A stretch of DNA of 64,000 nucleotides from Candidatus Manganitrophus morganii (GTDB lineage Bacteria; Nitrospirota; Nitrospiria; SBBL01; Manganitrophaceae): NCBI GenBank assembly GCA_021651055.1, contig JAJHOH010000001.1, positions 2,666,001 to 2,730,000 on the forward strand, in the 5' to 3' direction. Shown here one piece after another: positions 2,926 through 9,819 of the stretch; within the stretch, counting starts at the first letter, position 1; every line of letters starts with the position of its first letter. Under the pieces are notes generated by a model. That model was given only the letters and a program-made list of their open reading frames with translations. It was not told where the DNA came from and made no database searches. The position numbers were made by a program, and so were the translations under genes.

Positions 2926-3390
2926 ATGAATTTCTTCGCTGTCCTCAATCACTGGCTTCATCTGATCTCCGTCGTCATCTGGGTGGGGGGAGCGGCTTTT
3001 CTGGTTTTTGTCGCCGCGCCCCTGCTCAAAACGGGAGACCCCTCTTACGATTTCCTGAAAGGGGTCAACCATCGATTCCGTCGCATCGTTGGTCCGCTTC
3101 TCTTCATCTTGGTTGTCACCGGCGGGATCAATTTCGGGGTCCGGACCAAAGGATATGAATTCGTCCCTCCCGGTTATATCTCTGCGCTGGGGGTGAAGGT
3201 CTTTCTGTTCGCCGCGATTGCCTCGATTTATTTCTTCAGTATTCTTCGTTCTCGTTATAAAGATGAGCAGGATGAGAGACCGAGAGAGAATCAACCGGCC
3301 CTTCCCGAATTTGTAAACACCCGATTGACGCTGATTATCGGACTCATTATCATCTTCCTCGCCTCGATGTTAAGGCAGTGGAAGTTTTAG
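2926..3390 (+). CDS. CopD-family-like integral membrane protein
   Basis: A 154-residue protein with four predicted transmembrane helices (about 6-27, 45-63, 77-99, 131-149). The first helix has NHWLHLISVVIWVGG, with the His and the W-x-G-G typical of CopD/DUF2269-like membrane proteins; helix 2 is preceded by RFRRIVGP and followed by TGGIN. These families include copper-resistance CopD and HemJ-like haem-binding proteins, so metal or haem binding through the conserved His is possible. No cytoplasmic enzymatic domain is seen. It follows the PCP_red genes by 54 bases in the same direction and may belong to the same transcription unit. The ribosome-binding site is weak, so the start is moderately sure. 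Confidence 0.65.
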   Translation: MNFFAVLNHWLHLISVVIWVGGAAFLVFVAAPLLKTGDPSYDFLKGVNHRFRRIVGPLLFILVVTGGINFGVRTKGYEFVPPGYISALGVKVFLFAAIASIYFFSILRSRYKDEQDERPRENQPALPEFVNTRLTLIIGLIIIFLASMLRQWKF

Positions 3391-6958: not shown

Positions 6959-8203
6959 TTACCCTTCGTCGAACATCAAACCCTTTACCGGATTGTCGAT
7001 CTGATAGAGGTAACGCCGCGTTTGATCTTGGCAAACCGATTTCAGCTCCTCGTCTCTCATCGTTTGGCAGGCGACCTTCAACGCCTCCGCCCGCTCATGG
7101 CCCTTCTTTCGAAGGAAGAGGCCGCTGACGCAAAGTTTTCGATCGGTTGCATTTCCGTACTGACAGGTAAAATTGACCTCTTTGGGATGCGCAGCGATGT
7201 AAGAATGGCCATAGGCGCCCGCCGCGTAAAAGCAACTCAGGCGGGACTTCCCCTTTAATCCGGCGCATTGGAGGGCGACGGCATCGATTTGGCGAAGCGC
7301 GGTCGGGCGTCCCAAAAAGAAATGAAGACAGGAGCTCGGCCACTGCGTGTTATTGAGGCAAAAATCCATCTCCGCTTCCCATTTTTCTCCCGTGGCATTC
7401 TGTGCCAACTTCTTCTGAATCTCCTCGCGCAGTTCCATGAAAAGACCCGACTGGCAATAATACTGCATGGCGGCCTCCTCGAAAAGGGTGCAGTACTCTT
7501 TTGCCGTCGGGACGTTCTGGGCGATGTTGGCGAAGGCATGTCCCACCGCATGGGCGCAATTCCCGCGATAAAAGTCCTCCATGACGGTGGAGTCCTCTTT
7601 ACAGAGCTGGTGGACATCTTGTTTCAGCCGCTCGGTCTCCGGGGTGAGCCCCCCCTCGTTCAGAGAAAAATCGGCCTGCTCGATCTGATAGTCTGAGAAG
7701 TGGGCCTTCAGGACCCCATGAAGACAGGCATAAGTGCAGGCATCCTGACAAAGCTGAAAAGAGGTCTCCAGATTGTTGGTCCGCTCGCGGATAATGCTTC
7801 CGAGGGCGTGGAGCTCGCCATGGCAGAAGGGGTTTTGACCTTGAATGTGCTCCACGATCCTTCTGACGCCGAGATCGTCGATGAACTCCAGATAAATCGA
7901 TCGCTCCGTCCTCGTTTTAATCTGCTCTAACGCGGTGATGAACTCTCTCATCCGAAGGTTTTGTTCCTGCCCCCGAAGTCTTCCCAGCCAGAGAGGATGA
8001 TTCCGAATGGTTTCTTGATCTCCGAATCGGGATGGAGTCATCTCCCCGTCATCGGCCATTCCATGCGTCATTTCATGGGTTACTTCGTGCTCGATCGCAT
8101 CCATCGTCGACTCTTCTGCTGAAATCGAGAGGCTCCAGAATGAAGCCAACCCCAACCCGACCAGAGTCGCCAAAACAGTGAACTTCGAAAGTTTCAAAAG
8201 CAT
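6959..8203 (-). CDS. Secreted Cys/His-rich protein, paralog A
   Basis: 414 residues with a signal peptide (about 1-29, ending near SISA). The mature protein has about 16 Cys, many set in short repeated Cys-His-Gly units: CHGELHALG, CTYACLHGV, NCAHAVGHAF, YYCQSGLF, SCLHFFLG. There is no CxxCH, so it is not a c-type cytochrome. The units are spaced like helical repeats, suggesting a disulfide-stapled or metal-binding alpha-solenoid; similar C-x-H-G/G-H repeats occur in proteins of unknown function elsewhere. The start has AAAGGAT behind it. The next gene upstream is a close paralog in the same direction, with a 219-base gap between them. Residues about 124-253 are encoded by DNA identical to the paralog. 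Function unknown. Confidence 0.8.
   Translation of the reverse strand: MLLKLSKFTVLATLVGLGLASFWSLSISAEESTMDAIEHEVTHEMTHGMADDGEMTPSRFGDQETIRNHPLWLGRLRGQEQNLRMREFITALEQIKTRTERSIYLEFIDDLGVRRIVEHIQGQNPFCHGELHALGSIIRERTNNLETSFQLCQDACTYACLHGVLKAHFSDYQIEQADFSLNEGGLTPETERLKQDVHQLCKEDSTVMEDFYRGNCAHAVGHAFANIAQNVPTAKEYCTLFEEAAMQYYCQSGLFMELREEIQKKLAQNATGEKWEAEMDFCLNNTQWPSSCLHFFLGRPTALRQIDAVALQCAGLKGKSRLSCFYAAGAYGHSYIAAHPKEVNFTCQYGNATDRKLCVSGLFLRKKGHERAEALKVACQTMRDEELKSVCQDQTRRYLYQIDNPVKGLMFDEG
7443..7835. repeat. 393-bp direct repeat, copy 1 (inside paralog A)
   Basis: Reading line by line against 8907-9299 (offset 1464) I found no mismatch over 393 bases. The first differences are at 7442/8906 and 7836/9300. 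Outside this block the two genes differ clearly, including at silent positions. Confidence 0.92.
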
Positions 8204-8422
8204 AGAGATCCTTTATTTTTCAAAGTAATATTACGAAACATGAATGGATCGGAAAAGAGGGAGAAGAGAAACCTTTAACGAGAGAGGGAAAGCCATTCCG
8301 CAGGATGTATTATCGTTGAGGACTGATTTCATTCATAAATCATAGCTAAGATAACCCGGTCATTTTGTTTTTGTCAATAAAAAATAGCGCTGCTCTGCTT
8401 TCGAGGCATCACGAGAAATGCA

Positions 8423-9634
8423 TTATCCTTCGTCGAACATCAGACCCATTACCGGATTGTCGATCTGGTAGAGGTAACGCCGCGTTTGATCTTGACAGAC
8501 CGATTTCAGCTCCTCGTCTCTCATCGTTCGGCAGGCGACCTTCAGCGCCGCCGCCCCGCTATGGCCCTTCTTTCGAAGGAAGAGGCCGCTGATGCAGAGT
8601 TTGCGATCGGTTGTGTTTCCATACTGACAAGTATAATTGACCTCCTTGGGGGCTGCGGCAACATAGGCGCTGCTAAAGACGCCTACTCCGAAAAAACAGC
8701 TCAGGCGAGACCTTCCCTTCAATTCTGCGCATTTGAGGGCGACGGCATCGATTTGGCGAAGCGCGGTCGCATGTCCCAGGAAGAAATGAAGGCAGGCGCT
8801 CGGCCACTGGGAGTTGTCAAAGCAAAAAGCCACTGCTGTTTCCCATCTCTCTCCTACGGTATGGGAGGTCAGCTCTTTTCCAATTTCATCTCGCAGGTCC
8901 ATGAAGAGACCCGACTGGCAATAATACTGCATGGCGGCCTCCTCGAAAAGGGTGCAGTACTCTTTTGCCGTCGGGACGTTCTGGGCGATGTTGGCGAAGG
9001 CATGTCCCACCGCATGGGCGCAATTCCCGCGATAAAAGTCCTCCATGACGGTGGAGTCCTCTTTACAGAGCTGGTGGACATCTTGTTTCAGCCGCTCGGT
9101 CTCCGGGGTGAGCCCCCCCTCGTTCAGAGAAAAATCGGCCTGCTCGATCTGATAGTCTGAGAAGTGGGCCTTCAGGACCCCATGAAGACAGGCATAAGTG
9201 CAGGCATCCTGACAAAGCTGAAAAGAGGTCTCCAGATTGTTGGTCCGCTCGCGGATAATGCTTCCGAGGGCGTGGAGCTCGCCATGGCAGAAGGGGTTTA
9301 TCCCTTCAATATATTCGACGATTCTTCTGACGCCGAGATCGTCGATGAATTCCTGAAAAAGAGACCGCTCGGTTCTCATCTGAATCTTTTTCAAGGCGGT
9401 GATGAATTCTCTCATCCGAATACTTTGTTCCTGTCTGCGAAGCTTTCCCCGCCAGAGCGGATGGTTCCGAATGGTCGCTTGATCCTCAAGTTGAGATGAA
9501 GTCGTTTCTTCGTCATCGGCCATTTCCATGATTTTGTCTATCGCCGAATCTTCTGCAGAAACAGAAAGGCCCCAAGGTAAAGTCGACCATAACCCGATCG
9601 GAATGGCCAAAAGGAGGAGTGTCGATCGACGCAT
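8423..9634 (-). CDS. Secreted Cys/His-rich protein, paralog B
   Basis: 403 residues, same architecture as paralog A: signal peptide (about 1-26, ending GLSVSA), acidic spacer, then the Cys-His-Gly unit repeats and the same ending (NPV.GLMFDEG). It is preceded by AAAGGAT. Paralog A has an extra 11 or so residues of His/Met/Glu-rich sequence (HEVTHEMTHGM) after the signal peptide that B lacks; these could be metal ligands in A. The middle third is identical in DNA to A, while both flanks have diverged (for example the unit after the identical block is ELTSHTVGERW in B against KLAQNATGEKW in A). Function unknown; periplasmic or secreted. Confidence 0.8.
   Translation of the reverse strand: MRRSTLLLLAIPIGLWSTLPWGLSVSAEDSAIDKIMEMADDEETTSSQLEDQATIRNHPLWRGKLRRQEQSIRMREFITALKKIQMRTERSLFQEFIDDLGVRRIVEYIEGINPFCHGELHALGSIIRERTNNLETSFQLCQDACTYACLHGVLKAHFSDYQIEQADFSLNEGGLTPETERLKQDVHQLCKEDSTVMEDFYRGNCAHAVGHAFANIAQNVPTAKEYCTLFEEAAMQYYCQSGLFMDLRDEIGKELTSHTVGERWETAVAFCFDNSQWPSACLHFFLGHATALRQIDAVALKCAELKGRSRLSCFFGVGVFSSAYVAAAPKEVNYTCQYGNTTDRKLCISGLFLRKKGHSGAAALKVACRTMRDEELKSVCQDQTRRYLYQIDNPVMGLMFDEG
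8907..9299. repeat. 393-bp direct repeat, copy 2 (inside paralog B)
   Basis: Second copy of the block at 7443-7835, with no mismatch found by eye. It encodes the central Cys-rich units from FCHGELHALG to about SGLFM. Confidence 0.92.
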
Positions 9635-9819
9635 CGGTATCCTTTCGTTATGCGGTAATGAGCTGTTTGGAGGAAATGGATGGAATCGAAAAGGAGTGAA
9701 CGGGAAGACAAGCGAATAAGAGCGGAGAGTGTATCCGCAGGGATTCGAGCCGCTTGACCGGTTGTTCCATCCTCAATAATCATTAAGATAGCCCGGCTGC
9801 TGAATTCTGTCAAATGAAC

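Follow-up and report, generated by a model that had tools for sequence, protein, structure and literature searches.

Paired cysteines and a five-histidine core in a divergent family of exported, predicted helical-hairpin proteins, with two tandem members in Candidatus Manganitrophus morganii

Two tandem genes for proteins rich in cysteine and histidine lie in the 64,000-nucleotide stretch of Candidatus Manganitrophus morganii DNA analysed here, which we call the window (contig JAJHOH010000001.1, positions 2,666,001 to 2,730,000; genome size 4.29 Mb). They raise the question of what so many cysteines and histidines are for, and of whether the two proteins, A and B, belong to any family that already has a name. 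The original prediction described exported paralogs with about 16 cysteines each and no CxxCH, in which regularly spaced Cys-His-Gly and Gly-His units suggested a repeat fold with disulfides or metal ligands. The reading at which we arrive is that A and B provide an extracytoplasmic metal centre, likely of copper, for electron transfer or copper handling, and we give it an even chance of being right. Its parts differ in strength: the paired cysteines and the five-histidine core are firm as features of the sequences, a metal site in the family is likely, and for copper redox chemistry or copper handling the odds are about even.

The features of the two genes are collected in Table 1. The reading frames are as predicted, and each protein has exactly 16 cysteines, every one of them in the mature part, alongside 16 histidines in A and 12 in B. 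The hydrophobic N-terminal segments, which are putative signal peptides, end in ...SLSISA, followed by EES, in A and in ...GLSVSA, followed by EDS, in B. The heme attachment motif CxxCH is indeed absent from both proteins, and on this ground we rejected a multiheme c-type cytochrome.

Table 1. Features of genes A and B, in window positions.
Feature	Position	Strand	Description or basis
Paralog A	6959..8203	-	ORF, 414 aa, exported-type
Paralog B	8423..9634	-	ORF, 403 aa, exported-type; 79% identity to A
A signal-peptide-like segment, residues 1-29	8117..8203	-	sequence only
B signal-peptide-like segment, residues 1-27	9554..9634	-	sequence only
A His/Met/Glu-rich EHEVTHEMTHGM, residues 38-49	8057..8092	-	absent from B; sequence comparison
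A CHGELHALG	7799..7825	-	conserved His 128 and 132; Cys 127-Cys 156 pair by covariation
A CLHG	7715..7726	-	conserved His 162; Cys 160-Cys 152 pair by covariation
A CAHAVGH	7538..7558	-	conserved His 218 and 222
A CQSGLFME	7433..7456	-	Gly 253 in at least 55/58, Met 256 in 54/58 representatives
B CHGELHALG	9263..9289	-	motif as in A; sequence comparison
B CLHG	9179..9190	-	motif as in A; sequence comparison
B CAHAVGH	9002..9022	-	motif as in A; sequence comparison
B CQSGLFMD	8897..8920	-	counterpart of A CQSGLFME; sequence alignment
Identical 393-bp tract, A half	7443..7835	-	A/B nucleotide comparison
Identical 393-bp tract, B half	8907..9299	-	A/B nucleotide comparison
Promoter-like TTGACA-18-TATCTT, upstream of A	8348..8377	-	alignment of both upstream regions
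Promoter-like TTGACA-17-TATCTT, upstream of B	9785..9813	-	alignment of both upstream regions

Neither A nor B reaches the cut-off of any Pfam or NCBIfam model, nor does the family when its relatives are included, and the sequences of the PDB gave no match with A or with the profile; the earlier statement that no known family fits is thereby borne out in these searches. A fold search of the PDB returned no match at E 0.001, and no description of the family was found in the literature searched, which includes passages of PMC9040806, PMC5581439 and PMC12931201. Absence from the Pfam, NCBIfam and PDB lists does not exclude membership of a known family. Three weak candidates were rejected: the SUN family of glucosidases (PF03856) scores 14.4 and 14.6 bits against a Pfam cut-off of 25, a fimbrial NCBIfam model lies far below its cut-off, and in PADLOC a single one of 24 members matches a defence model at E 0.01 (LmuA), which we take to be chance.

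Searching with protein A, we obtain matches in 19 of 98 genomes, the window's own counted; these include five of the six genomes of the genus (G003 among the carriers) and none of the 12 remaining genomes of the order. Profile A1 matches 38 of the 395 genomes of the phylum. Scanning named genomes for sequence patterns retrieves 37 loci. Their carriers comprise Nitrospirota, including Nitrospira defluvii (FP929003) and 'Candidatus Manganitrophaceae bacterium isolate GW715_bin.13' (SCUR01000602.1), gammaproteobacterial MAGs, Uhrbacteria, Peregrinibacteria, Parcubacteria and Saccharibacteria, as well as one Woesearchaeote, one Rokuibacterium and one Holophagales MAG. Two plasmid records also carry the family, one of Gemmatirosa kalamazoonensis and one of Kitasatospora purpeofusca. 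Taken over all records, the groups represented are Nitrospirota, Patescibacteria, Pseudomonadota, Woesearchaeota, Rokuibacteriota, Acidobacteriota, Gemmatimonadota and Actinomycetota; since many of the source genomes are MAGs, single loci among them may be misbinned. Within Patescibacteria the family occurs in 18 of 332 sampled genomes, three of which have five reported matches each. We conclude that A and B belong to a real, divergent, exported family that is nameless in the libraries searched.

The relationships within the family were examined in a tree of 58 representatives, which has several long branches and whose root serves for drawing only. A and B fall into one group (support 100/100) with three relatives from the genus and five rows from Pseudomonadota or Nitrospirota. 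The Nitrospira copies cluster with one Parcubacteria copy (99/87; L074, L088, L057), which is a sign of transfer across phyla and suggests that, as far as the tree can tell, the family has moved between free-living bacteria and CPR. Some Patescibacteria genomes (G595, G598, G734) hold arrays of several diverged family paralogs in a row (L142, L146, L189, L147), some of them fused to cupredoxin. Four of the paralogs in G595 and G598 are without the conserved methionine described below, and all four retain the five histidines.

To ask which residues define the family, we reduce 99 domain sequences to the 58 representatives, whose pairwise identity is below 70%. Fourteen of these are pattern-scan loci, retrieved with patterns that include some of the conserved histidines; the others derive from profile or protein searches in which the conserved histidines were not demanded. 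Residues are numbered as in full-length A; a residue of the AlphaFold2 model has this number minus 30. Only 15 columns are kept in at least 55 of the 58 representatives: five histidines (128, 132, 162, 218 and 222), eight cysteines (201, 216, 238, 250, 282, 292, 313 and 324) and two glycines (221 and 253), a degree of order well beyond what chance would give. The five histidines are thus near-invariant in domains that are otherwise less than about 25% identical, whereas each of the eleven remaining histidines of A is matched by histidine in at most seven representatives. Methionine 256 is present in 54 of the 58, and the complete set of five histidines and this methionine in 52; among the six exceptions, four miss the methionine only and two have serine at the first histidine. 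The family may accordingly be described as an HxxxH / CxHG / CxHxxGH / CxxGxFM solenoid, and both A and B have all five of its histidines.

The cysteines obey a rule of their own. Three pairs are kept or lost jointly without a single exception among the 58 representatives: 127/156 (model 97/126; both present in 43, neither in 15), 152/160 (model 122/130; 39 and 19) and 313/324 (model 283/294; 55 and 3). The covariation has p <0.001 for each of the three pairs in a calculation that ignores ancestry, and the Gemmatirosa and Kitasatospora sequences, which lie outside the 58, follow the same rule. In A and B the 16 cysteines make up eight pairs within hairpins, and all of them probably form disulfides, three pairs being indicated by covariation and five by adjacency. 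The expectation of disulfides is in this way supported by the sequences, and a regular repeat exists, although it consists of the cysteine pairs and not of the histidine units. Of those units, the ones at residues 127-135, 160-163 and 216-222 of A do contain the conserved histidines, but no conservation is seen for the CxH at 292 (read as residues 292-294) or for the GH at positions 332 and 368. The repeat of cysteine pairs and the cluster of histidines are two separate layers, the histidines being confined to the first hairpins.

The AlphaFold2 model of A, built on 24 sequences, is an all-helical hairpin solenoid with 22 helices of at least four residues (mean pLDDT 87.1, pTM 0.87), in agreement with the predicted repeat fold; pLDDT values below 50 are confined to model residues 1-27, the variable tail. 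In successive hairpins, the histidine motifs either begin the second helix or lie inside it (model 99-112, 129-140, 183-198 and 214-227), and the five histidines probably meet on one face. When the model is compared with the PDB by Foldseek, the best E is 0.47; VIA-align finds its best neighbours among HEAT/PC-type solenoids (Rpn2 and others), with Z 5.6 over 246 residues and an rmsd of 12.8. With Z below 8 and so large an rmsd, the likeness of the model to these proteins is that of a generic solenoid arrangement. HEAT/PC-type solenoid proteins are intracellular and are not known to have stapling cysteines or a histidine core. The Sel1-like repeats of Hcp proteins are disulfide-stapled helical repeats. 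Hcp proteins are, like A and B, exported tandem helical hairpins with one cysteine pair each; A and B, however, give no Sel1 profile match at E up to 10, nor do five relatives at E up to 1, and a conserved histidine core is not known from Sel1-like Hcp proteins.

The solenoid itself invites another explanation, namely that the family is a structural or binding scaffold for a protein, a glycan or a mineral surface, metal-free, with the histidines serving folding or ligand contact. Solenoids are commonly interaction scaffolds, the best structural neighbours, weak as they are, are generic solenoid repeats, and the paralog arrays of three Patescibacteria genomes would suit variable binding proteins. 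Five near-invariant histidines amid identities below about 25% nevertheless resemble a site more than an interface, and we regard a scaffold as rather improbable.

We prefer instead to read the histidines as metal ligands, as had originally been suggested; their near-invariance and the independent copper or redox gene context of relatives, described below, both point that way. On this proposal, A and B would be periplasmic or secreted members of a helical-hairpin solenoid family, in which five histidines and a mostly conserved methionine are spread over four consecutive hairpins. The cysteine pairs would be disulfides that staple the hairpins, while HxxxH, CxH and HxxxH, together with the methionine, would come together on one face to bind a metal centre. 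The metal would most likely be copper, mononuclear or dinuclear, and the domain would serve electron transfer or the handling of copper outside the cytoplasm, with cupredoxin as its partner wherever the two are fused or adjacent.

The gene context that favours copper comes mainly from Patescibacteria. In eight of the 18 carrier genomes a cupredoxin (Cupredoxin_1, PF13473) is fused or adjacent to the family domain. It is joined in the same frame on the N-terminal side in G707, G734, G717, G595 and G598 and on the C-terminal side in G509, and it is encoded by a neighbouring gene in G684, G734, G598 and the Saccharibacteria locus L058 of G408; in the other ten carriers, no linked cupredoxin was seen. 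The partner, of WPAS type, is well conserved and has four invariant histidines. Under random placement we expect 0.30 linked genomes as against the eight observed (tail probability 3e-12; this simple model takes no account of ancestry or gene clustering). A cupredoxin is present anywhere in the genome in 16 of the 18 family-bearing Patescibacteria as compared with 122 of 314 without the family, by a profile built largely from the linked cases (most of the eight linked genomes). When the eight linked genomes are left out, the association weakens to eight of ten versus 122 of 314 (p 0.017, ancestry ignored). A and B are not themselves cupredoxins, an identity that we rejected: PF13473 is unmatched in both, and the model is all-helical.

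Further context is found at two single loci. In the Saccharibacteria locus L058, the family domain follows a fused membrane domain with invariant histidines; relatives of this membrane domain stand alone, and in three of the five other aligned loci they have a cupredoxin gene beside them. The membrane domain itself is matched neither in Pfam, above cut-off, nor in the PDB. Ferric_reduct is matched by L186, a distant relative (E 3.1e-7), so that a ferric-reductase reading of L058 is suggestive at most. The Kitasatospora plasmid member, KPHV_86690 (L209:11935-12858), is directly followed by a Caa3_CtaG gene, with CcsB, a CopC-CopD gene and carbonic anhydrase in its vicinity, the first two within 9 kb. 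As Kitasatospora purpeofusca is an organism in culture, it offers a good genetic test case. These two loci can also be read in favour of a heme-binding protein, in which pairs of histidines on neighbouring helices would ligate a b-type heme without CxxCH: the L058 member is joined to a membrane domain that has invariant histidines, and another lies beside CtaG and near CcsB. The recurring partner is a cupredoxin, however, CxxCH is absent, and these analyses give no sign of a heme pocket, so that we consider heme highly improbable.

As an observation in its own right, L058:3238-3939 and L180-L184 define a small family of Saccharibacteria membrane proteins with two invariant histidines, which adjoins cupredoxin genes in several genomes.

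Other neighbourhoods give copper less support. In the genome of the window itself, the cupredoxin match is weak and generic (E 3.6e-5), and six of the 15 carriers tested have none (G039, G063, G412, G413, G414 and G416). We find no copper gene shared next to the family in the Nitrospirota, Pseudomonadota and window neighbourhoods, and no operon conserved with the window genes in the neighbourhoods compared. The neighbours of A and B are NfeD and Band 7 genes, a gene without assignment and a gene that is presumably ComM-like. The Nitrospira copies lie next to genes that are presumably GlnS-like and ABC-F-like, and the Manganitrophus relatives next to what we assume to be lipoate ligase-like and RND-like genes; neither set of neighbourhoods indicates a function. 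The copies of G378 and G261, moreover, adjoin a metal ABC transporter that looks to us like ZnuABC/TroA, and the L025 copy lies upstream of an ABC transporter that we presume to be of ferric type, so that zinc, manganese or iron would fit there as well. Given the weak cupredoxin match of the window genome, the six carriers without any, the unrelated neighbours of A and B and these transporters, copper is favoured and not more.

The same transporters lend some weight to a non-redox periplasmic binder or buffer of zinc, manganese or iron, in which the histidine cluster and tails would take up the metal, either to pass it to a transporter or to keep it in store. So do the additional His-rich stretches found at differing places in nine of the 58 representatives, compared with 2.6 expected by shuffling, although these stretches also speak for the metal centre that we prefer. 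The His/Met/Glu-rich insert of A, correctly said to be lacking in B, is one such variable tail and no defining feature of the family; it varies freely among relatives, and we therefore rejected it as the main metal site. A buffer working through its tails would not need five near-invariant histidines in a folded core. The direct fusions that recur are, furthermore, to cupredoxins, a copper electron-carrier domain, and one member carries a membrane domain of redox look. We hold such a binder to be possible, at perhaps one chance in four.

Returning to copper, a bolder form of the proposal may be stated. The family could be an undescribed class of exported cuproproteins in at least eight phyla, Patescibacteria and a Woesearchaeote among them, whose disulfide-stapled, five-histidine (and methionine) copper solenoid exchanges electrons with cupredoxin and possibly carries out redox reactions itself. 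Manganitrophus would then have, in two gene-converted copies, a periplasmic redox component that has escaped recognition. We offer this tentatively, as somewhat less than a one-in-three prospect. Its fold class and its copper setting are of known kinds. CopC/CopD and PcoE/SilE-type proteins are exported as A and B are, some family members have His/Met-rich tails, and CopC/CopD share a copper gene context with the Kitasatospora plasmid member; A and B, in contrast, have no sequence match to any of these and an all-helical, disulfide-rich fold. If the copper centre is real, the curated family libraries searched lack a metalloprotein architecture that a Manganitrophus-type organism shares with nitrite-oxidising Nitrospira, a Woesearchaeote and ultra-small Patescibacteria. 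The family would then supply a concrete, testable protein for the use of cupredoxin in cells that have few of the usual respiratory components, and manganese oxidisers would gain a new candidate for electron transfer in the periplasm. Should copper prove wrong, a five-histidine site that outlasts nearly all other identity would still merit biochemistry.

The recent history of the two genes is recorded in their nucleotides. The alignment of A and B is 83% identical overall and contains a stretch of 393 bp that is 100% identical, while the counterparts of this tract in the sister species G002 match it at 360 of 393 positions for A and 372 of 393 for B. At the level of sequence, A and B have therefore undergone gene conversion over the tract in the recent past; since the tract spans the conserved histidine core, this part of the two genes has lately been made uniform, whereas their ends have drifted apart. 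The upstream regions of A and B are related as well, and each gene has its own putative promoter-like pair. Elsewhere in the window, positions 2926-3390 encode a membrane protein whose match to CopD stays below threshold (8.2e-7; 29.8 bits, cut-off 32.1) and which adjoins a protein with four PCP_red stretches.
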